Below, piece after piece: positions 7,693 to 33,161 of a DNA stretch of 35,844 nucleotides. Both the position numbers and the translations under genes were made by a program. This DNA comes from Clostridia bacterium (GTDB lineage Bacteria; Bacillota; Clostridia; Christensenellales; Aristaeellaceae). The DNA lies in contig JAFQOD010000027.1 in the NCBI GenBank assembly GCA_017395685.1, positions 1-35,844 on the forward strand, written 5' to 3'. Within the stretch, counting starts at the first letter, position 1. Every line of letters starts with the position of its first letter. Under the pieces are notes generated by a model that had not been told where the DNA came from, ran no database searches, and was given only the letters and a program-made list of their open reading frames with translations.

Positions 7693-10458
7693 TTATTTTC
7701 TTTTAAATATAAATTCAACGGGACGGAAACCGGCCTGCGCGAAGAACATTTTGATGTAATTATCCCCGGCATTCAGGAACCCTAATTCTTTTTCAATGAT
7801 TCTTTGGGATTTATCTAAACCATTGAATGTAAATGTATTTACAACGCGCCCGTTAACATAAATAGATACAGGGATTTGCGAAAGTTCCTTGGATTCAACA
7901 AAAAATTCGATGAGCATCTGATATTCACCGGGATCCTTCACCCGCAAGCCGTATGCAAGAAAAGCACCCTTGCCGGTATGGGCGTTCCGGGAATCGATCC
8001 TTAGTTCATCGTTCAGTTCCATCATTGGAAGATCGGCAAACATTTCCTTTTCCTCTGCCAGAAGCTGAGCGGCAGATTCTTCCTCTTCCTTGCCGAGCCT
8101 GCCAAGGAAATGCAGCATGGCTGGGGAACGGAGCAGTACTTTCAGGGTATTCCGCGCGCATTTCTGCAGCTGGCCGCGGGTAACGCTTCCTTCTTTTACA
8201 GCCTCTTCCAGATTATCATTATTGCCGTTTCCGGGGGAGTCGCTGGTAACCATATAAACATCGTTCTGCGCCCTTATCATTGCAGCAGTGTTCTGAATGG
8301 AGGGTTTTTCGCCTTCATCATTCAAAGCGGCCCACCAGTCGGTCATAGCAATGCCCTGGAAGCCCCATTCATTGCGCAGAATGGTGGTGACAAGATCATA
8401 ATGACTACCGGTCCATTGCCCGTTGAGTGCGCCGTAGGTGGTCATAATGGAATAGGCCCCTGCTTCCTTCACAGCAATCTCAAATCCCTTAAGATAGATT
8501 TCCCGCAGTGCGCGCTGGGAAATGACGGAATCCAGATGATGACGGCGATGCTCCTGATTATTGCCGCAGAAATGCTTGATAGTGCCGGTTACGCCATGAC
8601 GATGCATCCCCTTAAGCTGAGCTGCGGCGATTTTTCCGGAAACAAGGGGATCCTCAGAAAAATATTCGAAATTCCGCCCATTCAGGGGATGACGATGAAT
8701 ATTCATACCCGGGCCAAGCAGCGTATCGATATGATTCTTTCGTAATTCCATACCAAGGTATGAAAATAATTCTTCATTCAGTGCTTCATTGAAGGTGCAG
8801 GCCATGCACGTGCCGTTCGGCAAACTGAACGCAAAGGACCCACAGTCCATCCGGATACCGGAAGGCCCGTCTGAACAGCAGCCGCAAGGAATGCCAAAGC
8901 CCTTCAGGGCATCTGATACGCCGCCGAAGGCAGCGGCGGTGCCGGGAGTCACCTTGGGGGAACACATGCCCTCACCACGGGCAAGGCAGATCAGATCAAA
9001 ATCAGAAAGCTGGGCAATAAAATCATCCAGCTGCGCTTTTCCGTCAAAAACATCGGCAAGCTTGATGCCGCAATCTCCGGTATAAGGGATGGTTTCCGGC
9101 ATTTCATTATTGATCCGGGATTTAATATCAATGGTGCGCAGGGGGACAGGCTCGTATACAGGGATCCAATTTCCCTTATCATCTGCAGAGGGACGGATAC
9201 GATCAAAAGCGCGCACGGGGGCAGCGGCCTGGTTCAGTTGTTCCACAACTTCGCATTCTTTCAATTCAAAAGAATACACAGGATGTGCTTTCCGAACATC
9301 TCCGCCCATCCAGACCTCATATTTTCCTTCTTCCATGACATAACAGTGCGGATGACCTGTAATGCCGCTATCGTCAAAGGAAGTAAAACGATATTTGGGA
9401 ATGGAAAGGGAAAGCACTGCCTTTTTGCCGGGAGCAATTACATCGGTTTTGCCAAAACCAAGCAGTACGCGACTGGGTTTGCCCAGTTTCCCCTGGGGGG
9501 CCAGACCATAAACCTGCACAACTTCTTTTCCGGGAAAATCACCAATATTTACGACAGAGGCAGTTAACTCGAGGCCTTGATCGTTCCAGCTGCTTTCCTT
9601 GCAGGTGATTTGGAACTGAGAATAGGAAAGGCCAAAGCCAAAGGGATAGATTACTTTATCCGGGGCAAAGGTTTCAAACCAGCGATAACCAACATAAATA
9701 TCTTCCGCATAAAAAAGGCGGTTGTCATCGCCGAAGTTGGCATTAGATGGATAATCGCTGATGTTTTCTGCAATGGTATCGGTGAGTTTTCCGGAGGGGC
9801 TGACCCTGCCCATCAGCAGATCGGCAACACCGTTTCCGCCTTCCATGCCGCCCTGCCATACATACATGACGGCACTGGGGTTATATTCCCGTACCCATTT
9901 CATATCAATGATGTTGCCAACGTTGAGCAGAACCACCGTCTTTTTAAATGCCTTACATACCTTTGCAAGCATATCCTTTTCCAACGAAGTAAGCAGATAG
10001 CTGCCTTCATCTTCCGATGCATCCCGATCTTCACCTGCAGTACGGCCAATAATCATCACGGCAGTATCGGATACATTGGCAGCATTTTCTACGATTTCAT
10101 TGGTAAGGGGCATTTCCTCCTGACACCAGGGCTCAGTGCCCCAACCATTCCCTTCGTCGTAGGGATGATCCTTGATCCAGGTACGATAGATTTCTTCTAG
10201 TTCCGGATTGATCCAAAGGCCCTTTTCCTGCTTGAGGGCAGAAAGAATATCCATCACATACTTGGTATTAACCATGCCGCCGGAGCCGGTGCCGCTTTTA
10301 TAATAGGAAAACTGAATGCGGCCGAAGATAGAAATGCGGGCATTTGCAGCCAACGGCAGCGCACTGCAATCATTTTTTAAAAGAACAGCACCTTCTGCAG
10401 CTGCTGCTTTGGCGGTTTTAGCGTATTGGGACCAATTCAGGGTATGATTCACTTCCAT
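7693..10458 (-). CDS. GH3 beta-glucosidase with permuted domain order
   Basis: A 921-residue glycoside hydrolase family 3 enzyme whose halves are swapped. Residues about 10-260 are the alpha/beta sandwich domain (AAAEGAVLLKND, then FGFGLSYSQF), followed by a fibronectin-III-like part to about 400. The TIM barrel comes after this and contains GPGMNIHRHPLNGRNFEYFSEDP and the nucleophile Asp707 in AMTDWW. Residues from about 815 look like an extra beta-sandwich, possibly sugar-binding. Ruminococcus albus and Butyrivibrio beta-glucosidases show the same inverted order. There is no signal peptide, so it acts inside on imported glucosides. The ATG at 10458 is eight bases after AGGAGG; an upstream in-frame GTG overlaps that site. 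It is last in the GH5-lacI operon. Confidence 0.92.
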   Translation of the reverse strand: MEVNHTLNWSQYAKTAKAAAAEGAVLLKNDCSALPLAANARISIFGRIQFSYYKSGTGSGGMVNTKYVMDILSALKQEKGLWINPELEEIYRTWIKDHPYDEGNGWGTEPWCQEEMPLTNEIVENAANVSDTAVMIIGRTAGEDRDASEDEGSYLLTSLEKDMLAKVCKAFKKTVVLLNVGNIIDMKWVREYNPSAVMYVWQGGMEGGNGVADLLMGRVSPSGKLTDTIAENISDYPSNANFGDDNRLFYAEDIYVGYRWFETFAPDKVIYPFGFGLSYSQFQITCKESSWNDQGLELTASVVNIGDFPGKEVVQVYGLAPQGKLGKPSRVLLGFGKTDVIAPGKKAVLSLSIPKYRFTSFDDSGITGHPHCYVMEEGKYEVWMGGDVRKAHPVYSFELKECEVVEQLNQAAAPVRAFDRIRPSADDKGNWIPVYEPVPLRTIDIKSRINNEMPETIPYTGDCGIKLADVFDGKAQLDDFIAQLSDFDLICLARGEGMCSPKVTPGTAAAFGGVSDALKGFGIPCGCCSDGPSGIRMDCGSFAFSLPNGTCMACTFNEALNEELFSYLGMELRKNHIDTLLGPGMNIHRHPLNGRNFEYFSEDPLVSGKIAAAQLKGMHRHGVTGTIKHFCGNNQEHRRHHLDSVISQRALREIYLKGFEIAVKEAGAYSIMTTYGALNGQWTGSHYDLVTTILRNEWGFQGIAMTDWWAALNDEGEKPSIQNTAAMIRAQNDVYMVTSDSPGNGNNDNLEEAVKEGSVTRGQLQKCARNTLKVLLRSPAMLHFLGRLGKEEEESAAQLLAEEKEMFADLPMMELNDELRIDSRNAHTGKGAFLAYGLRVKDPGEYQMLIEFFVESKELSQIPVSIYVNGRVVNTFTFNGLDKSQRIIEKELGFLNAGDNYIKMFFAQAGFRPVEFIFKRK

Positions 10459-10500
10459 GGGGAACACCTCCTGAAATTTTCGAAAATAGAATTTGAAATA

Positions 10501-13409: not shown

Positions 13410-14738
13410 ATGAAAGCCGTCATTCATCAGATGACCCGCTCAGGCATGGAAAAAACTGAGATTCTTCTTCAAAAGCAGACTATCCGCGATGAATTTTATG
13501 TGGTCAATCTTTACGAAGAGGAAAAAGGAAGGGTTTTTGATGGCATTGGCGGTGCTGCAACGGAAGCAGCTGCTCATGTATTCTTTGCCATGCCGGCGGA
13601 CAAACAGGAGGAACTGCTGGATTATTACTTTGGGAGCGGCGCTGATTATCGCTATTTAAGGGTATCCATTGATAGCTGTGATTTTTCTGTAGGGCATTAT
13701 GAGGCGATGAGCGACCCGGATGACAAGGAATTTGCCTCCTTCAGTCTTGCTCGTGATGAAAAAGAAGTGATTCCTTTTATCAAACGGGCAGAAAAGAAGG
13801 CGGGGCGGAAGCTGCCCCTGCTGCTTTCTCCTTGGAGCCCGCCAGCTTTCATGAAAACCACCGGTCAAAGAAACCGCGGCGGTAAGTTGCTTCCCCAGTA
13901 TCGGGAAATGTGGGCGGAATATATTTGCCGCTATATTGAAGGCTATCTGGCTCACGGACTCATCGTCAAATATGTAACGGTGCAAAATGAACCCAATGCC
14001 ACCCAATCATGGGATTCCTGCATTTATACCGGGGAAGATGAGAGAGTGTTCGTTCGGGATTATCTGGCCCCAGCTTTGAAACGGCATGGTCTTTCAACTG
14101 GCATTTATATCTGGGATCACAATAAAGAACGGGTATATGCCCGCGCAAAAGAAACCATTCAGGATGATACGAAGGATTTGATCGAAGGAATTGCTTTTCA
14201 TTTTTACACGGGAGATCATTTCAAGGCTTTGGAATTGGTAGCTAAACGCTTCCCTGAAAAGAAGCTGATCTTTACTGAAGGATGCATGGAATACAGCCGT
14301 GCAGATCTTGGCAAGGATATTTATATGCACGGTTTGCGTTATGCACATGAATATATTGGGGATATTAATCACGGCGCCACAATTCTGCTGGACTGGAATC
14401 TGTATTTGGATCAGCAGGGCGGCCCCAATCATGTGCAGAATTTCTGCTCTGCGCCAGTAATGTGTGATATCAATGAGAAAAAAATCATGCCCAATCCTTC
14501 ATGGCAGGCTATTTCCCTGATAGGGCAGACGGCAAAACCTGGCGGCACGCAGATCGCGTCTTCTGCCTGGCATCCGGATATCGAAACGGCAGCATTTCTG
14601 TTGCCTGACGGAAAAGCATCTTTATTGATGCTTAATCGCGGAAAGGAAACGCTTCCTGTGAAACCTGTTTGGATGGGGCAGACGGCCAAATTTGATTTGC
14701 CGCCCGAATCCCTGACGGCTGTAATCTTTCAAGAATGA
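13410..14738 (+). CDS. GH30 glycosidase (beta-glucanase/glucosylceramidase type), cytoplasmic
   Basis: A 442-residue GH30 enzyme. FDGIGGAATEAAA near residue 45 is the family's N-terminal signature. The acid/base is Glu194 in VQNEPN and the nucleophile is Glu290 in IFTEGC. LLSPWSPPAFMKTT and ILLDWNLYLD also fit. Residues from about 375 make the usual beta-sandwich. No signal peptide is present, so it should act on imported oligosaccharides. GH30 members cut beta-1,6-glucan, beta-glucosides, xylan and others; the pairing with GH5, GH3 and a LacI regulator favours a beta-glucan. The ATG at 13410 follows AAGGTGAG; an in-frame GTG at 13401 lies inside that site. It opens the plus-strand operon. 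Confidence 0.88.
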   Translation: MKAVIHQMTRSGMEKTEILLQKQTIRDEFYVVNLYEEEKGRVFDGIGGAATEAAAHVFFAMPADKQEELLDYYFGSGADYRYLRVSIDSCDFSVGHYEAMSDPDDKEFASFSLARDEKEVIPFIKRAEKKAGRKLPLLLSPWSPPAFMKTTGQRNRGGKLLPQYREMWAEYICRYIEGYLAHGLIVKYVTVQNEPNATQSWDSCIYTGEDERVFVRDYLAPALKRHGLSTGIYIWDHNKERVYARAKETIQDDTKDLIEGIAFHFYTGDHFKALELVAKRFPEKKLIFTEGCMEYSRADLGKDIYMHGLRYAHEYIGDINHGATILLDWNLYLDQQGGPNHVQNFCSAPVMCDINEKKIMPNPSWQAISLIGQTAKPGGTQIASSAWHPDIETAAFLLPDGKASLLMLNRGKETLPVKPVWMGQTAKFDLPPESLTAVIFQE

Positions 14739-14752
14739 GGGGGCTGAATAAG

Positions 14753-16573
14753 ATGAGCACTGCGGTTGTGCAAATAAAAAAGAAATCCCGCTTGAGCAGG
14801 GTAGGCCGCCAGGCATGGTTGTGTCTGCTGGCTGCCTTTGTGCTCCTTGCTGGCTGTATTTTACTTCGAACCTTTGATGGCGGTGCGGGTACCGAATTAA
14901 GCGCCGCATCTGCTCAGGCAGCCGAACTTTCCAATGCGCTGGAACAACTTGAAACGCTGGAAACCCGTTATCAGAAGCGTGTAACACAGTTGGAAGAGGC
15001 AAAAGCAGCATTGGAGGCTTCTCCCGAGGATGCAAAACTGAAATCCAAACTTGATCGTGCACAGGGCGAATATGATAAGGCATTGAAAAACAGAGATAAG
15101 CAGCTGGGTGTAGTAAATGGTATGCCAACTATGGCCGAACTGAATGATCAGATGAATGATCTGAAGGAAAGCCGTGCTACCCGCATGCTGATATCCAATT
15201 TGCTCCTTACAATGGCTTTTAGTGCGTTTTCCGGCTTTATGGCGTTCATGGTACGCACGATTGACAGGAAAGTTCTGATCAGCATCGGTGGTCTGCTGCT
15301 GAGTTGTCTGCTGATTGTAATTGGCGTCCATCAGAACAATCTGATGCCTGTGCTGCAGCCTGGTGAAACCATGCCAGGTACTATGATTATCGCTGTCGGT
15401 CTCGGTCTTCTTGCCATTTTCCATATCATATACTGGTTGATGGTTACCGAGGATAAAACGATAGTAAAAATTATCATCAGCTCTCTTTTGATCCTGGCAG
15501 GCGCTACATTATGTATTATCGGCTTGTTTGTCAATAATCAGCCCGATTCTGCCAGTAAGTATATCAATTCTATGAGCCCCGGCTTCCCCTATATTTTTGT
15601 CGGAATCATTCTTCTGATCATCGGTACTTTTGTTATGGCGATGCCGCTGATGCGTCTTCGCTATGATCTTAGGAAGAATCCTGTTCTTCTGATCATGGTG
15701 CTGCCAAGTATTGTATACTTTCTCATCACTTCCTATCTGCCCATGGTAGGCGTTTATTTTTCCTTCACCAGTTATCAGTTTACCGGCAAATTCTTCTCCA
15801 CCCTTTTCGGAAGCAAATTTGTGGGTATGGATAACTTTGCTTATCTGTTTTCGTCCGGTCTTGCATGGCGGATGACCTTCAATACACTGGTCTACAATTT
15901 CATTTTCATCGTTGGCGGCACGATCCTGAAGGTAGCCGTTGCCATCATGTTCTCGGAGATCGCTGGAAAATATTTCAAGAAAACTGTTCAGACGGTAACA
16001 TTCCTGCCGCACTTCATCTCCATGGTTATGGTGGGAACCTTCGCTTACAATCTCCTCAACTATAACAGCGGTGTTATCAATTCACTGCTTACATCCCTGG
16101 GAATGGAGCGCGTGGATTTCTATTCTATTCCCGGCGCATGGTACATTATTATTCCGTTGGTTGATTTCTGGAAGGGCGTTGGCTACGGTTCCATCATCTA
16201 TGTATCTGCTATCACGGGAATCAGTGATGATCTGTATGAGGCGGCAGATTTGGACGGCGCCAATTTCATGCAGGAGATCCGGCATATTACCATTCCTTCC
16301 ATTCGCCCGACCATTGTCATTCTGACACTGATGAGCTTGGGCAGCATCATGAAGGGTAACTTCGATCTGTTCTATCAGCTGGTCGGTGAATCCGGACAAT
16401 TGATGGAAGCTACTGAAATTATTGACACCTATGTATGGCGCGCTCTGCGGCAGAATGTTCAGATCGGTATGGGCTCAGCGGCAGGTTTATATCAATCCTT
16501 TGTCGGCATGATTCTCGTTGTCCTGGTAAATACCATCGTCAAGAAGATCGAGCCGGATTACGCTATTTTCTAA
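14753..16573 (+). CDS. LplB-type ABC permease with a large N-terminal membrane/coiled-coil extension
   Basis: A 606-residue protein, twice the usual length of this family (about 300). Residues from about 305 are a normal LplB-type permease with six membrane segments and the EAA loop YEAADLDGANFMQEI (about 495-509). The N-terminal half has one membrane segment (22-39), an about 90-residue Lys/Glu/Ala/Leu-rich coiled coil (52-138), then five more segments (145-167, 173-192, 210-230, 238-259, 278-298). Positive charges (RTIDRK, RLRYDLRK) place the coiled coil outside. The reading frame is continuous, so this is a real fusion. I chose the ATG at 14753, nine bases after GAGGGGG; an ATG at 14735 overlaps the GH30 stop. 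The second permease starts 19 bases after the stop. The function of the extension is unknown; a dock for the binding protein or the cell wall is speculation. Confidence 0.9.
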   Translation: MSTAVVQIKKKSRLSRVGRQAWLCLLAAFVLLAGCILLRTFDGGAGTELSAASAQAAELSNALEQLETLETRYQKRVTQLEEAKAALEASPEDAKLKSKLDRAQGEYDKALKNRDKQLGVVNGMPTMAELNDQMNDLKESRATRMLISNLLLTMAFSAFSGFMAFMVRTIDRKVLISIGGLLLSCLLIVIGVHQNNLMPVLQPGETMPGTMIIAVGLGLLAIFHIIYWLMVTEDKTIVKIIISSLLILAGATLCIIGLFVNNQPDSASKYINSMSPGFPYIFVGIILLIIGTFVMAMPLMRLRYDLRKNPVLLIMVLPSIVYFLITSYLPMVGVYFSFTSYQFTGKFFSTLFGSKFVGMDNFAYLFSSGLAWRMTFNTLVYNFIFIVGGTILKVAVAIMFSEIAGKYFKKTVQTVTFLPHFISMVMVGTFAYNLLNYNSGVINSLLTSLGMERVDFYSIPGAWYIIIPLVDFWKGVGYGSIIYVSAITGISDDLYEAADLDGANFMQEIRHITIPSIRPTIVILTLMSLGSIMKGNFDLFYQLVGESGQLMEATEIIDTYVWRALRQNVQIGMGSAAGLYQSFVGMILVVLVNTIVKKIEPDYAIF

Positions 16574-27584: not shown

Positions 27585-28195
27585 AGCTTGTCTCCTTTAT
27601 TTTCAGGAAGTCTTTTTAGTACATTGGCCCACAGGGATAAAACGATGGCTGCGCTTTCTTCCTTGCTACCGGATGTGCGGATTACATGGTGAGATTTTCT
27701 GGCTTTTTCAAGGGTTGGTATCTGAGCATGAATGCGTTGCATGGCTTCGCTTCTGCTTAGATGATCCCGGCCCATCAGGCGCTGAATTTGCTCTTTTTGG
27801 GGAATATATGCACACCATATTTCATCACACCACTGATCAATGCCAGTTTCAAAGAGCAGCGGTACATCCAGAACAACAGGCCCGGAATGGCGATCCATTT
27901 CTGATTTCATTTTCCGGAAGATCAGAGGATGTGTGATGGCATTCAAGCTGGTTAAAGCATTGGGGTCGGAGAATACAAGGCTTCCAAGGGCGCGGCGGTT
28001 AAGATTCTCTCCGTCAAATACAGCCTCGCCAAAGGCTTTGCGGATTGCGGGCAGCGCTTCACCGCCGGGAGCGGTCAAAGAACGGGAAATTGAATCAGCA
28101 TCAATGACAGGAGCGCCTGCATTCCTCAGTGCATCAGAAAGATTGGTTTTGCCGCATGCAATGCCGCCAGTCAGACCAATTACATAGCTGCTCAT
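27581..28195 (-). CDS. coaE: Dephospho-CoA kinase
   Basis: A 204-residue kinase for the last step of coenzyme A synthesis. The P-loop is GLTGGIACGKT (residues 7-17); VIDADSISR and LDVPLLFETG are the usual substrate and lid motifs. The ATG overlaps the polA stop by four bases (ATGA) and the gene overlaps the following transglycosylase by four bases, so translation is chained. Length is normal. Confidence 0.96.
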   Translation of the reverse strand: MSSYVIGLTGGIACGKTNLSDALRNAGAPVIDADSISRSLTAPGGEALPAIRKAFGEAVFDGENLNRRALGSLVFSDPNALTSLNAITHPLIFRKMKSEMDRHSGPVVLDVPLLFETGIDQWCDEIWCAYIPQKEQIQRLMGRDHLSRSEAMQRIHAQIPTLEKARKSHHVIRTSGSKEESAAIVLSLWANVLKRLPENKGDKL

Positions 28196-30732
28196 TTGGT
28201 TTCATACCAACTTTCACCGGATTTAACCTCGGCTACCAGCGGAACGACAAGCTCAATTACGCTTTCCATGCACTGACGAAGGATTTCTATAACCCTTTCC
28301 TCTTCTTCCTTAGGGGCTTCAATCATCAATTCGTCGTGTACCTGCAGGATCAGCTTGGCCTTCAGGTTTTCGTTTTTCAGAGCCTGATGAACACGAACCA
28401 TGGCCAGTTTGATGATATCGGCGGCTGTGCCCTGTACCGGGGTATTCATGGCAGCACGCTCGCCGAAATTACGGGTATTGGCATTGCTGGCTTTGAGTTC
28501 CGGAAGCTGCCTGCGTCGTCCCATCAGCGTGGAGGCATAACCATCTTCATATCCTTTTTTGACTGCATCGTCCATAAACTTTTTTACGCCGGGATACCGG
28601 GCAAAATAGCGGGCGATAAAATCCGCGGCAGCTTTTCGTGAGATACCGATGTTCCGGGCCAAACCGAAATCACTGATGCCATAAACCAAGCCGAAGTTTA
28701 CTGCTTTTGCACTGGAACGCATGGCAGGGGTCACTTCTTCCATGGGGATGCCATCTACTTCGGCAGCGGTACGTGTATGGATATCCTGGCCTTTCTGGAA
28801 AGCATCCACCATGGCGGCGTCGCCGGAAAAATGGGCCAGCACACGCAGTTCAATCTGGCTGTAGTCGGCATCTGCCAGGATATAACCGGGGCGTGAGATG
28901 AATGCCTTCCGGATTTCCCGGCCCATTTCGGTACGGACGGGGATGTTCTGAAGATTGGGTTCACTGGAGGAAATACGCCCGGTAGCAGTGCCGGTCTGAT
29001 CGAAAGTGGTATGCACCCGGCCGGTTGCATCCATTTTCCTCAGCAATGCATCGATATAGGTGCTGTTCAGCTTTACAACCTGCCGGTATTGCAGGATGGG
29101 GGCGATACAGGGATGCAGATCCACCAGCTTTTCTAGAGTATCTGCATCTGTGGAATAACCACGCGTAGTTTTTTTGCCGGCGGGGAGTCCCAGCGTCTCA
29201 AATAATACTTTGCCCAGCTGTTGGGGGCTATTCAGGTTAAAGCCGCGCACCCCAGAAAGCGCATATACCTGTTCCTTCAGTTCTTCAGCATTTTTTGTAA
29301 ACTGGGCTCCAAGGGTGGATAGTACCTGTCCATCAACCTGGAAGCCGGCTTGTTCCATATCGAAAAGCGCATAAAGAAGGGGCATTTCCACATCCAGCAT
29401 CAGGGAAAGCATGCCTTCTTCCCGCAGCATCTTTTCTTGTTTTTTGGCAAGGTTGAGAACGCCCATGGCATCTTCCTGAGCAAAATGATTGAGTGCATAG
29501 GATTTTTCCTGGGGATTGTGCAGATATGCGCCCAACATGGTATCCCAGGCAAATTCAGGCATGGGAAGAGATAAATTGCTCAGCAAATGTAAAAGCGATT
29601 TGCCGTCATGAACATATAATTTCCGGCTCAGAAGAGGACGCAGGGCTTCCCATGCTTCCTCAGGCATCAGACCGGTTGAAAGCATATCCTGCTGCAGAAT
29701 CACTTCATATAGTTTTCCGGGAACAGCTAGCGTGAGATGGGTGGGGGTAACATGAATCGCAGTGGGCAGGGTATCAGTTTCAGCAAGAAAAGATGCAATC
29801 TCTTCTTGGCAGGAGAGAGAAAAGGTAAGAATTTCTTCCTGGATATTATCCTCATCGAGCGGCGATTCGGCTTCCATTCCCAGCTTTTCCATACGGCTGG
29901 CAATGCCGTTCAGCTGATATTTCTTCAGTACAGGCATGCCTTGGGCCATCCCGGAGACATCAAATGCAGTCAGATTAAAATCAATGGGTGCAGTGGGGCG
30001 GATAGTAGCCAAATCCTTTGAGAATATGGCTAATTCGGCATGATCACGGATTTTTTCGCCCAGCTTTCCTTTGATTTCCGCAGCGTGGGCAAGCACATTT
30101 TCCAAGGTATGATATTCATTCAAAAGTTTCAATGCTGTTTTTTCACCGACACCGGGAATGCCGGGAATATTATCACTGGCATCGCCCATCAGGCCCTTCC
30201 AATCGGTTACCTGTTCGGGAGTCACCCCAAAGTATTCCTTAACCCCGGCGGAATCAAAAAGGGTGCTCTCGGTAATGCCTTTGCGGGTAAAAAGCACTTT
30301 TGTTCCATTTCCGATCAGCTGCAAAGCATCCCGGTCGCCGGTAAGCAATACGCAATCAAGATTTTGCTGTTGACAATGTACAGAAAGCGTGCCAAGAATA
30401 TCATCGGCTTCATATCCGGTTACAGATAAAACGCCCAGATGCATGGCAGAAAGGATTTCTTTGATAATGACAAACTGAGGACGAAGCTCTTCCGGTGTTG
30501 CCCGGCGGCCTGCCTTATAATCAGCATATGCAGTATGGCGGAAGGTGGGTGCGTGTTCATCAAACGCAACAGCAATATAGCGGGGAGATAAATCCTGCAT
30601 GGCTTTTAAAAGCATGGATAAAAAACCGTGCACGGCATTGGTATAGATCCCATTACTGTCCATTAGGGGCAGGGCGTGGAAGGCACGATGCATCAGGCTA
30701 TTGCCATCTACGGCCAGAAGGGTTTCACGCAT
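28192..30732 (-). CDS. polA: DNA polymerase I
   Basis: An 846-residue family A polymerase. Residues 1-290 are the 5'-3' flap nuclease (AVDGNSLMHRAFHALP, VAFDEHAPTFRH, YEADDILGT, GDASDNIPGIPGVGEKTA). Residues about 300-460 hold the 3'-5' exonuclease fold but lack its acidic metal residues, so proofreading is probably absent, as in many Bacillota. The polymerase domain has motif A DADYSQIELRVLA (near 620), motif B RSSAKAVNFGLVYG and motif C QVHDEL (near 800). It fills gaps in repair and lagging-strand processing. It heads the polA-coaE-slt operon and is divergent from the nuclease-SNF2 gene across 161 bases. Confidence 0.97.
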   Translation of the reverse strand: MRETLLAVDGNSLMHRAFHALPLMDSNGIYTNAVHGFLSMLLKAMQDLSPRYIAVAFDEHAPTFRHTAYADYKAGRRATPEELRPQFVIIKEILSAMHLGVLSVTGYEADDILGTLSVHCQQQNLDCVLLTGDRDALQLIGNGTKVLFTRKGITESTLFDSAGVKEYFGVTPEQVTDWKGLMGDASDNIPGIPGVGEKTALKLLNEYHTLENVLAHAAEIKGKLGEKIRDHAELAIFSKDLATIRPTAPIDFNLTAFDVSGMAQGMPVLKKYQLNGIASRMEKLGMEAESPLDEDNIQEEILTFSLSCQEEIASFLAETDTLPTAIHVTPTHLTLAVPGKLYEVILQQDMLSTGLMPEEAWEALRPLLSRKLYVHDGKSLLHLLSNLSLPMPEFAWDTMLGAYLHNPQEKSYALNHFAQEDAMGVLNLAKKQEKMLREEGMLSLMLDVEMPLLYALFDMEQAGFQVDGQVLSTLGAQFTKNAEELKEQVYALSGVRGFNLNSPQQLGKVLFETLGLPAGKKTTRGYSTDADTLEKLVDLHPCIAPILQYRQVVKLNSTYIDALLRKMDATGRVHTTFDQTGTATGRISSSEPNLQNIPVRTEMGREIRKAFISRPGYILADADYSQIELRVLAHFSGDAAMVDAFQKGQDIHTRTAAEVDGIPMEEVTPAMRSSAKAVNFGLVYGISDFGLARNIGISRKAAADFIARYFARYPGVKKFMDDAVKKGYEDGYASTLMGRRRQLPELKASNANTRNFGERAAMNTPVQGTAADIIKLAMVRVHQALKNENLKAKLILQVHDELMIEAPKEEEERVIEILRQCMESVIELVVPLVAEVKSGESWYETK

Positions 30733-30867: not shown

Positions 30868-30893
30868 GAAAGAGAAGAGCAAGGAGGGTTTCC

Positions 30894-33161
30894 ATGACAG
30901 CGGAAATCATTTTACAGGCAATCTCCCGGATCAGAGCTCCAAAGACGCAGGATGAATACGATTTGCATGGAATGGTGGCCCAGGCGCTGCAAGAGGCTGA
31001 ACTTCCTTTCCAGCATGAAGCACCACTGGCTTCCCGATGCCGCATTGATTTTCTCTGCGGTCGTATTGGTATTGAAATCAAACGGGGGAAAATGAATATA
31101 GAGGCTGTAAAACGACAATTGAACCGCTATGCTGCATCTGGGAAAGTAGATGCACTGATTTTGATTGCAGAGAAAGTACGGGGTGCTCCGGCCTATGCAG
31201 AAAAGATACCGGTATATCCGGTCAGTCTGAATAAACTGTGGGGAATTTCAATAGATATTGGCGCTGATGAAGTATCATACATGGAAATGAAAACCGATTG
31301 GCAAGAAGGGGAAGATACCGCATCGCAGCATCAAGTGGAAACCGAATCAGTGGATTATGTGCAGGAATATAGCACGGGGGAAGAAGTGCCAGAGTTTTCT
31401 TTCGATACGGCAATTGAGGATACAGTTCTTCACCAGCTTGCACAAGAAGATATTCCGGCATACCTGAGGACGCAGGAACCAGCCAATTATTATTATGGCA
31501 CCCTGTCCTATAATGCACGCAGAAAATGCTGGCAAATCAAGGGCGATCCCGGCGTCACTGAATTGGCGAAAAGATTGTTCCCGGGAAGTGATTCCAAGCG
31601 GGGAGAAGCAAGATTTACTGCTCATAGCCGTACCATCGGTGATGTCAATTGGCTGATGATGCGATATCCTCTGCAAGTGGCCCAAAGGGATCGGGAACGA
31701 TGGAAAAGGGCCCTGGAAAGCGCACGGGAGGATCACCGCCGCAGGCAGGCAGCCCGTATTGCAGTCCCTGCACCGCAGCTGTCTAAAGCCCTGTTTCAGG
31801 GTGAATTGAGGCCCTTCCAGCAGATAGGATTATCCTGGCTGCTTCTTACCCCAAGGGCATTGTTGGCAGATGAAATGGGCCTTGGGAAAACAGTACAGGC
31901 ATTGGCTTGCGCTGCACAGGAGGGGATTTTTCCTCTTCTGATTGTACCGCCGCCCCACCTTACCCGTAACTGGTTAGCAGAGACAGGGCGTTTCCTCCGG
32001 ATTCAGGGGAGAGAACCCAGAATTCATATTATCAAGGGCCTGAAACCTTATAATTTACCAGAAGCGGATGTGTATATCCTGCATTATTTACTGCTTCGGG
32101 GATGGAAGCAGGTGCTTCCAAAGATGAATTTCCATACCGTTATCTTTGATGAAGTGCAGGAACTGCGGCGAACAGGAACAGAAAAATACAGTGCTGCCAG
32201 CCTACTTTCCGAATCTTGCGAGCGAGTGATCGGCCTGTCCGGGACTCCGATTTACAATTATGGCGGAGAAATCTGGAATGTGGTGAACATACTGGATTAT
32301 CACTTCCTAGGGGATTGGGAATCGTTTACCAGGGAATGGTGCGCAGGATATGGCAATCGAATCGTTCTGAAGCCTCAGCTGCTTGGGGATCATTTGCGCA
32401 GGGAAGGGCTGATGCTCCGCCGTACAAAGCAGGAAGTTTTGCCGGAATTACCGGAAAAGCGACGTCTGGTACAGGAGATTGATGCAGATGATGCCATCTA
32501 TCAGCAATTGATGGGTGGTATACGTGAAAAATTGTATCAATGGCGGCATAGTCTGGAGTTGACACCTTCTGAAAGAGCTTTGCTTGAGGATCAGATTTCC
32601 CAGGAAGAGAGGCAGGCAACGGGCCTTGCAAAGGCCGGCTATGTATGCCAGTTTGTTAAAGCGCTTCTGAATTCCGAAGAGAAGGTTCTCCTTTTTGCTC
32701 ATCATCATGCAGTAATGGATGTGTATCGCCAGGAATTAAAGCAGGAGCATCCGGTCTTCATTACCGGTCGTGAATCAATGGCAAAAAAGGAAGAGGCAGT
32801 AGAGCGTTTTATGGAAGGGAAAACAAATCTATGCTGCATATCCCTCCGGGCAGCCAGCGGGCTTAATCTGCAGCGGGCGACATGCGTAGTATTTGGTGAA
32901 CTGGATTGGTCGCCTGCGGTACATTCCCAGGCTGAAGATCGGGCACACCGAATGGGGCAACGAGATTCTCTTCTTTGTTATTATCTGGTTTCTCCCCATG
33001 GCAGCGATCAGGAAATGCAGGAAGCTCTTGGGTTGAAGGTGAGTCAGTTCACCATGCTGATGGGGGATGCGCCGCAAACAGAAGAACAAACGGCGGCTGG
33101 GGCCAATTATGCCAGGATGCATGTTGAAAAACTAATCCGGAAAATGAGGATAGATGCATAA
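30894..33161 (+). CDS. PD-(D/E)XK nuclease fused to an SNF2-family helicase
   Basis: A 755-residue protein not recognised as a named family. Residues about 20-95 look like a PD-(D/E)XK nuclease: Asp52 in RIDFLCG, Glu61 and Lys63 in GIEIKRGK, and Gln75 with Tyr79 in QLNRY. Residues 135-195 are acidic and probably flexible. Residues 198-265 form a small domain (YYYGTLSYNARRKCWQIKG) that I cannot name. The SNF2 motor follows from about 300: DEMGLGKT (326-333), DEVQ (419-422) in place of the usual DExH, SGTP (449-452) and QAEDRAHRMGQ (679-689), all intact. The compact motor recalls SMARCAL1/ZRANB3 annealing helicases. AAGGAGG lies six bases before the ATG. It is divergent from polA, so DNA repair or restriction of foreign DNA is possible; no methylase or partner gene is adjacent. 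Confidence 0.85.
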   Translation: MTAEIILQAISRIRAPKTQDEYDLHGMVAQALQEAELPFQHEAPLASRCRIDFLCGRIGIEIKRGKMNIEAVKRQLNRYAASGKVDALILIAEKVRGAPAYAEKIPVYPVSLNKLWGISIDIGADEVSYMEMKTDWQEGEDTASQHQVETESVDYVQEYSTGEEVPEFSFDTAIEDTVLHQLAQEDIPAYLRTQEPANYYYGTLSYNARRKCWQIKGDPGVTELAKRLFPGSDSKRGEARFTAHSRTIGDVNWLMMRYPLQVAQRDRERWKRALESAREDHRRRQAARIAVPAPQLSKALFQGELRPFQQIGLSWLLLTPRALLADEMGLGKTVQALACAAQEGIFPLLIVPPPHLTRNWLAETGRFLRIQGREPRIHIIKGLKPYNLPEADVYILHYLLLRGWKQVLPKMNFHTVIFDEVQELRRTGTEKYSAASLLSESCERVIGLSGTPIYNYGGEIWNVVNILDYHFLGDWESFTREWCAGYGNRIVLKPQLLGDHLRREGLMLRRTKQEVLPELPEKRRLVQEIDADDAIYQQLMGGIREKLYQWRHSLELTPSERALLEDQISQEERQATGLAKAGYVCQFVKALLNSEEKVLLFAHHHAVMDVYRQELKQEHPVFITGRESMAKKEEAVERFMEGKTNLCCISLRAASGLNLQRATCVVFGELDWSPAVHSQAEDRAHRMGQRDSLLCYYLVSPHGSDQEMQEALGLKVSQFTMLMGDAPQTEEQTAAGANYARMHVEKLIRKMRIDA

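Follow-up and report, generated by a model that had tools for sequence, protein, structure and literature searches.

The question raised by this locus is what a single protein that joins a candidate nuclease to an SNF2 motor does on a Clostridia chromosome, and whether it is better understood as a repair enzyme, a defence system or a passenger from mobile elements. The gene was studied in the window (the whole analysed stretch of DNA, 35,844 nucleotides), and its features are collected in Table 1. From N to C terminus, the product contains a domain that looks like a PD-(D/E)XK-type nuclease, a variable linker, a middle domain that is strongly conserved but unnamed, and an SNF2 motor that is complete. 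Pfam placed SNF2-rel_dom and Helicase_C, the two domains by which the SNF2 family is recognized, above cut-off, and returned nothing above cut-off for residues 1-145 and 146-299. An earlier note on this DNA had proposed a nuclease and a complete SNF2 motor in one chain. The open reading frame, Pfam, the alignments and a predicted fold all agree with this core, and both motor lobes score above cut-off. The placement in that note of Asp52, Glu61-x-Lys63, Gln75/Tyr79, the Walker A residue Lys332 and DEVQ (419-422) is confirmed.

Table 1. Features of the gene and its neighbor in the window.
Feature	Residues	Coordinates	Strand	Remarks
polA, divergent neighbor (then coaE and a lytic-transglycosylase-like gene)		28192..30732	-	names from protein sequences, without family search
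Shine-Dalgarno-like AAGGAGG		30881..30887	+	6 bases before the ATG (sequence)
Whole gene		30894..33161	+	one open reading frame, 755 aa, stop included, ATG start
PD-(D/E)XK-type nuclease domain (by residues and predicted fold)	1-119	30894..31250	+	Glu21, Asp52, Glu61, Lys63, Gln75, Tyr79
Linker	120-195	31251..31478	+	variable in length and sequence (alignment)
Middle domain	196-290	31479..31763	+	beta-beta-alpha-beta-alpha, then a long helix
SNF2 lobe 1	309-532	31818..32489	+	Pfam PF00176, 82.4 bits (cut-off 24.9)
SNF2 lobe 2	585-688	32646..32957	+	Pfam PF00271, 48.5 bits (cut-off 23.5)

Two other genes of the window were recorded in passing. One (7693-10467, minus strand) encodes a glycoside hydrolase of family 3 with swapped domain order, the C-terminal domain at residues 28-282 preceding an Fn3-like domain (315-390) and the N-terminal barrel (525-773). 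The other (14735-16573, plus strand) encodes a 612-aa protein with a transport permease domain at residues 402-602 only, its approximately 400 N-terminal residues being without assignment.

Our alignments and modelling support the assignment of the N-terminal domain. Its six listed residues were invariant in all 24 rows of the genus alignment (A1, window included) and in 67/67 rows of a wider alignment (A4), which leaves out four of the 64 loci described below: L050, which a contig edge truncates, and the three loci L063, L069 and L091, where the nuclease was not found. Because of this invariance in both alignments, the pattern is not a product of chance. It includes the catalytic Asp and Glu-x-Lys of the PD-(D/E)XK superfamily, present as Asp52, Glu61 and Lys63 in all 67 rows. 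A model of residues 1-124 (pLDDT 86.8) has a core of helix, three strands, helix and strand that aligns to restriction-type nucleases. By its residues and predicted fold, this part looks like a PD-(D/E)XK-type nuclease and would be expected to cleave. The earlier note had said that its nuclease claim would fall if the fold were not a PD-(D/E)XK core or if homologues lacked Asp52, Glu61 and Lys63; the predicted fold resembles such a core, and the homologues retain all three.

Among the named nuclease families, VRR-NUC (PF08774) had no match to E 0.1 in the 67 nuclease rows and none in the window's own genome, with three of 14 control genomes matched. NucS/EndoMS (PF01939) matched four of the 67 rows at E up to 0.1, and the window protein scored 13.2 bits, under the Pfam cut-off of 24. 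NucS is not known to carry a motor. Among PADLOC models, including Hachiman and the other PADLOC nucleases, no family matched residues 1-145 up to E 1. The nuclease does match PHROG 5928 (E 1.3e-15, 124 positions), a family whose function PHROGs does not give.

The middle domain was modelled well (AF2 pLDDT 89.7 for residues 175-299), and profile matches show it to be common to motors of Thaumarchaeota, phages and plasmids. No Pfam family fitted it and fold comparison gave no confident match; the searches returned neither a family name nor a solved relative. HARP (PF07443) had no match to E 1 in 57 middle-domain rows and none in the window's own genome, in a test that is weak for bacteria, as just one of 14 controls matched and that one below cut-off. 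The proposal of an unnamed middle domain is borne out: it is one conserved domain without a Pfam family. Selection was assessed from the eight closest of 253 sequence pairs, which share sequences, and dN/dS was 0.04-0.13 for the nuclease part, 0.01-0.07 for the middle domain and 0.01-0.13 across nuclease, middle domain and motor. The gene is under strong purifying selection, and the middle domain is as constrained as the motor. The linker, with dN/dS of 0.19-0.68, sits where the nuclease stop codon falls in split relatives (junctions).

The motor carries Walker A Lys332 and DEVQ in its first lobe and RAHRMGQ at residues 683-689. DEVQ had been regarded as an unusual box, but an ordinary SNF2 protein of a congener (L026, one example) reads DEAQ. 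DExQ is frequent in bacterial SNF2 proteins, and DEVQ looks ordinary for a motor of this kind. Residues 241-727 match PHROG 62, a phage DNA helicase (E 3e-89). Motor and nuclease thus both match phage families; in the phages that we fetched they are two genes, whereas here they form one fused chromosomal gene.

This difference proved to be the main point. In a set of 64 loci (L033-L095 and L025), the two parts were fused in 19 and split in 42, where a co-directional nuclease gene immediately precedes the motor gene; in three, no nuclease was found. The separate nuclease gene (42/64 loci) ends near LWGIAL(P). Of the 42 split loci, 27 offer a possible motor start (ATG, GTG or TTG) that shares 4 bp with the nuclease stop, two offer one that shares 1 bp, and 13 offer neither; in four of the 42, both genes lie in one frame behind a stop. 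To judge from sequence, the nuclease and motor genes may be translationally coupled. For two of the three loci without a nuclease, L069 and L091, the sequence starts at a contig edge or close to one. The third, L063, holds a chromosomal motor of the split group (L063:4059-5975) with 4 kb of upstream DNA and no nuclease there, a possible natural separation.

A motor tree of 68 rows, rooted on three archaeal rows, gathered the fused rows into one clade (SH-aLRT 97) nested among split rows; it omits the partial rows L069, L088, L091, L093 and L095 and five loci from genus-set genomes, and represents the genus set by seven rows beside the window. The fused rows also formed one clade (bootstrap 100, SH-aLRT 97) in a tree of 51 rows, from which long and near-identical rows had been dropped and which was rooted on four split rows. 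From the nesting in the first tree, we read a single fusion of a two-gene unit. Fusion is the exception and the derived state, and the nuclease is usually a separate adjacent gene. The earlier description of the gene as standing alone missed this, and it missed the occurrence of the pair on phages and plasmids.

Nuclease and motor belong together. Run against 248 genomes of the order, the nuclease and middle-domain profiles each matched 26, and by their listed positions these were the same 26 genomes, with the two parts adjacent and in one copy each (a count uncorrected for kinship). Judged by open-frame lengths, six of these are fused and 20 split; the remaining 222 genomes lack the module. 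Within the window's genus, a homologue at approximately 70-80% identity was found in 23 of 24 genomes. The middle domain is rare in two phylum samples (2/398 and 2/299 genomes, own genome included), the second genome carrying the same orphan motor in both. Motors that share this middle domain (34-40% identity) are encoded at 17 thaumarchaeal loci (L096-L112). A wider profile found the domain in 16; in the exception (L102), a contig edge cuts into the motor. At these loci, no nuclease gene was present in the available flanking DNA, which is short for some.

The chromosomal surroundings of the gene recur by clade. It is near polA in nine of 24 genus loci (flanks of at most 1.5 kb) and in five of 11 genus loci with longer flanks, one of them about 2 kb away; the two sets overlap. 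The link to polA in the earlier note therefore stands for the window and part of the genus, but not as a constant linkage. In ten loci of the sister fused clade, the gene lies directly before co-directional ruvC and ruvA, and in nine of them ruvB follows too; L050 ends before the ruvB position. The products in L046 are named RuvC, RuvA and RuvB by NCBIfam equivalogs. Outside the window's clade, nine of the 11 fused loci (L040-L042, L044-L047, L049, L050, L056 and L088) have this linkage, the exceptions being L056, which is without it, and L088, which ends inside the motor; the tenth linked locus is L069, cut upstream. In the order sample, ruvC-ruvA-ruvB accompanied the gene in all four fused loci outside the genus (where G550 is the genome of L046) and ruv genes were seen in none of the 19 split loci within the fetched flanks. 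No ruv genes lie beside the gene in the window's genus. Since both these 19 split loci and the genus lack it, ruv linkage belongs to one clade.

Split loci have neighborhoods of their own. In seven of them (L043, L055, L061, L062, L065, L067 and L093), the pair closely follows the end of a co-directional penicillin-binding protein gene, again a neighborhood specific to a clade, and in split locus L073, queA and ruvB lie 2.4-5.8 kb downstream on the other strand. Recurrent neighbors overall include RuvCAB, QueA, penicillin-binding protein, a tRNA synthetase and a pseudouridine synthase. The window's genome has its own RuvC, MutS1 and a RecG match whose 657.8 bits fall slightly short of the cut-off (659.4); the module therefore fills no obvious gap.

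Similar pairs were found on mobile elements. With tBLASTn, Arthrobacter, Ruegeria and Tunturiibacter phages were found to carry the pair, and Pseudomonas phages to carry the motor; on plasmids, the pair was detected, among the best 20 of 646 records, in Thermobacillus, Pseudomonas, Burkholderia, Amycolatopsis and Mycobacterium. In 11 of 11 fetched phage and plasmid loci (L113-L123), a nuclease gene lay directly upstream of the motor (profile E 2e-36 to 4e-14), a figure that is not an unbiased rate because the loci were hand-picked, several for a nuclease match already visible. They were chosen from three lists, namely 37 phage records covered to 80% or more, the 24 records of a second nuclease search and the best 20 of 646 plasmid records; for L115, L119, L120, L122 and L123, the leading match covered the motor only. 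The annotated genes overlap by 4 bp in seven of the 11. In phages the pair lies among replication genes. The Arthrobacter phage copies are annotated as DNA helicase and Cas4 family exonuclease or endonuclease, and in one Arthrobacter phage, RusA and SSB follow within a few kb of the pair. A pair in Anaerospora lies in a phage-like block, where seven of ten scanned neighbors match PHROGs. In a Pseudomonas aeruginosa plasmid (pNY5530-NR1, L123), an annotated DprA gene was observed downstream of the pair, with two small genes between.

Based upon these observations, we consider that the gene probably, though by no means certainly, encodes a nuclease-motor machine for branched DNA with a role in chromosomal repair. 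The SNF2 motor would track along double-stranded DNA, the middle domain would probably hold it at a junction, branch or distorted site, and the attached PD-(D/E)XK nuclease would cut the strand exposed there. Such an enzyme could work alongside RuvABC and RecG in the repair of stalled forks or of recombination junctions. Support for this is anatomical and contextual. Against it weigh the lack of the module in 222 of the 248 genomes, the motors at L063 and in Thaumarchaeota for which no nuclease was found, the confinement of the ruv link to one clade, the RuvC, RecG match and MutS1 of the window's genome, and the frequency of similar plans in defence. Two coupled genes travelling on phages and plasmids would have become residents of some Clostridia chromosomes, and nuclease and motor would have fused once, in an ancestor of the window's clade. 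The archaeal helicase-nuclease XPB-Bax1, as described in passages of PMC7293015, is among the closest known systems; its mark is a damage-recognition fold, resembling MutS domain I, ahead of the motor. A more specific form of our reading is possible but clearly more tentative. It supposes an XPB-Bax1-like resolver of branched DNA built from SNF2 parts, in which a sensor of the MutS-I/XPB-DRD type would steer a translocase that feeds a NucS-like nuclease; derived from phages or plasmids, it would have entered the RuvABC pathway of some Clostridia and been fused once, while Thaumarchaeota would have the sensor and motor without the nuclease.

Nuclease-SNF2 pairs and fusions are already known, and the present one is unnamed. 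In the literature listings and passages retrieved, neither the nuclease family nor its middle domain was described, and nor were the chromosomal pair, the fusion or the ruvCAB linkage. VRR-NUC with SNF2, known from Ca. Heliusviridae (PMC9226167), likewise combines a small nuclease of the PD-(D/E)XK superfamily with an SNF2-like helicase, but no VRR_NUC match was obtained here; passages of PMC3319617 place that combination in Liberibacter as well, and PMC4103454 treats VRR-NUC biochemistry.

The strongest rival is a defence system, because defence systems commonly combine a nuclease with a helicase, as a pair or as a fusion, according to the literature passages. The motor would scan DNA and, as in ZorD, Hachiman or the BREX-related type 1 proteins, would license the nuclease to destroy DNA that has invaded. 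In passages of PMC11890865 and PMC12839542, respectively, ZorD of type I Zorya and BREX-related type 1 helicases unite an SNF2-type motor with a PD-(D/E)XK or Mrr-like nuclease in one protein, and one paper's title reports an SNF2-nuclease fusion in Halomonas defence. The motor's best PADLOC matches are the ZorD and DpdE models, and the pair occurs on phages and plasmids. However, the NCBIfam ZorD model (NF041790) scored 62.1 bits against a cut-off of 1500 and covered motor residues, while the nuclease part had no PADLOC match at E up to 1. Membership in BREX-related type 1 was considered and rejected: as defined in the available text of PMC12839542, those proteins have an active C-terminal nuclease and an N-terminal TUDOR domain, whereas here the nuclease is N-terminal and the middle domain is the protein's own. 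Around the loci, 83 flanking ORF products from 23 genomes (some possibly antisense, and products of at least 900 aa left out) gave few PADLOC matches at E up to 1e-15, namely mad3 (three members), mad2 (two), dCTPase (one) and REase_II (one), and it is housekeeping neighbors, including the ruv operon, that recur. Presence in 23 of 24 congeners, in single copy, together with purifying selection therefore favours repair over defence, which we judge unlikely. The earlier note had left a one-gene defence system and a fork-repair enzyme side by side; its repair suggestion gains support, while defence is disfavoured by near-fixation in the genus and by ruvCAB linkage in the sister clade.

Equally improbable, in our judgement, is that the pair is a replication or recombination module of mobile elements whose Clostridia copies are mainly integrated remnants without a host role. 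Its place among phage replication genes and in the Anaerospora block would fit, as would passages of PMC9226167 that list VRR-NUC and SNF2 as core genes of Ca. Heliusviridae. Against it stand the clade-recurrent housekeeping neighbors (polA, ruvCAB and, in seven loci, penicillin-binding protein), the single copy per genome and strong purifying selection. A purely selfish role fits phages and plasmids, and fits the chromosomal copies less. It is very hard to credit that the protein is an enzyme like SMARCAL1/ZRANB3, which anneals DNA or remodels forks, with a secondary nuclease. A small domain does lie directly before the SNF2 motor, as HARP does in SMARCAL1, and Thaumarchaeota retain middle domain and motor with no nuclease found, but HARP has no match and purifying selection acts on the nuclease as it does on the other domains. 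The earlier note had seen a bacterial counterpart of ZRANB3 with a different nuclease; kinship is not supported, as HARP has no match and Pfam finds no HNH family in the window protein. ZRANB3 does share the plan of an SNF2 motor and a nuclease in one chain, but that nuclease is HNH according to PMC5481773, and here it is of PD-(D/E)XK type.

In conclusion, we return to a nuclease-motor machine for repair of branched DNA as the preferred reading. This unnamed pair of genes is a link between phages, plasmids and chromosomes, and it illustrates how a single resident enzyme can arise from a nuclease-helicase module. If the linkage to ruvCAB is functional, the module would add a motor-driven nuclease to bacterial junction processing, and its fused and split forms, with and without the nuclease, would offer a test bed for bacterial SNF2 motors.
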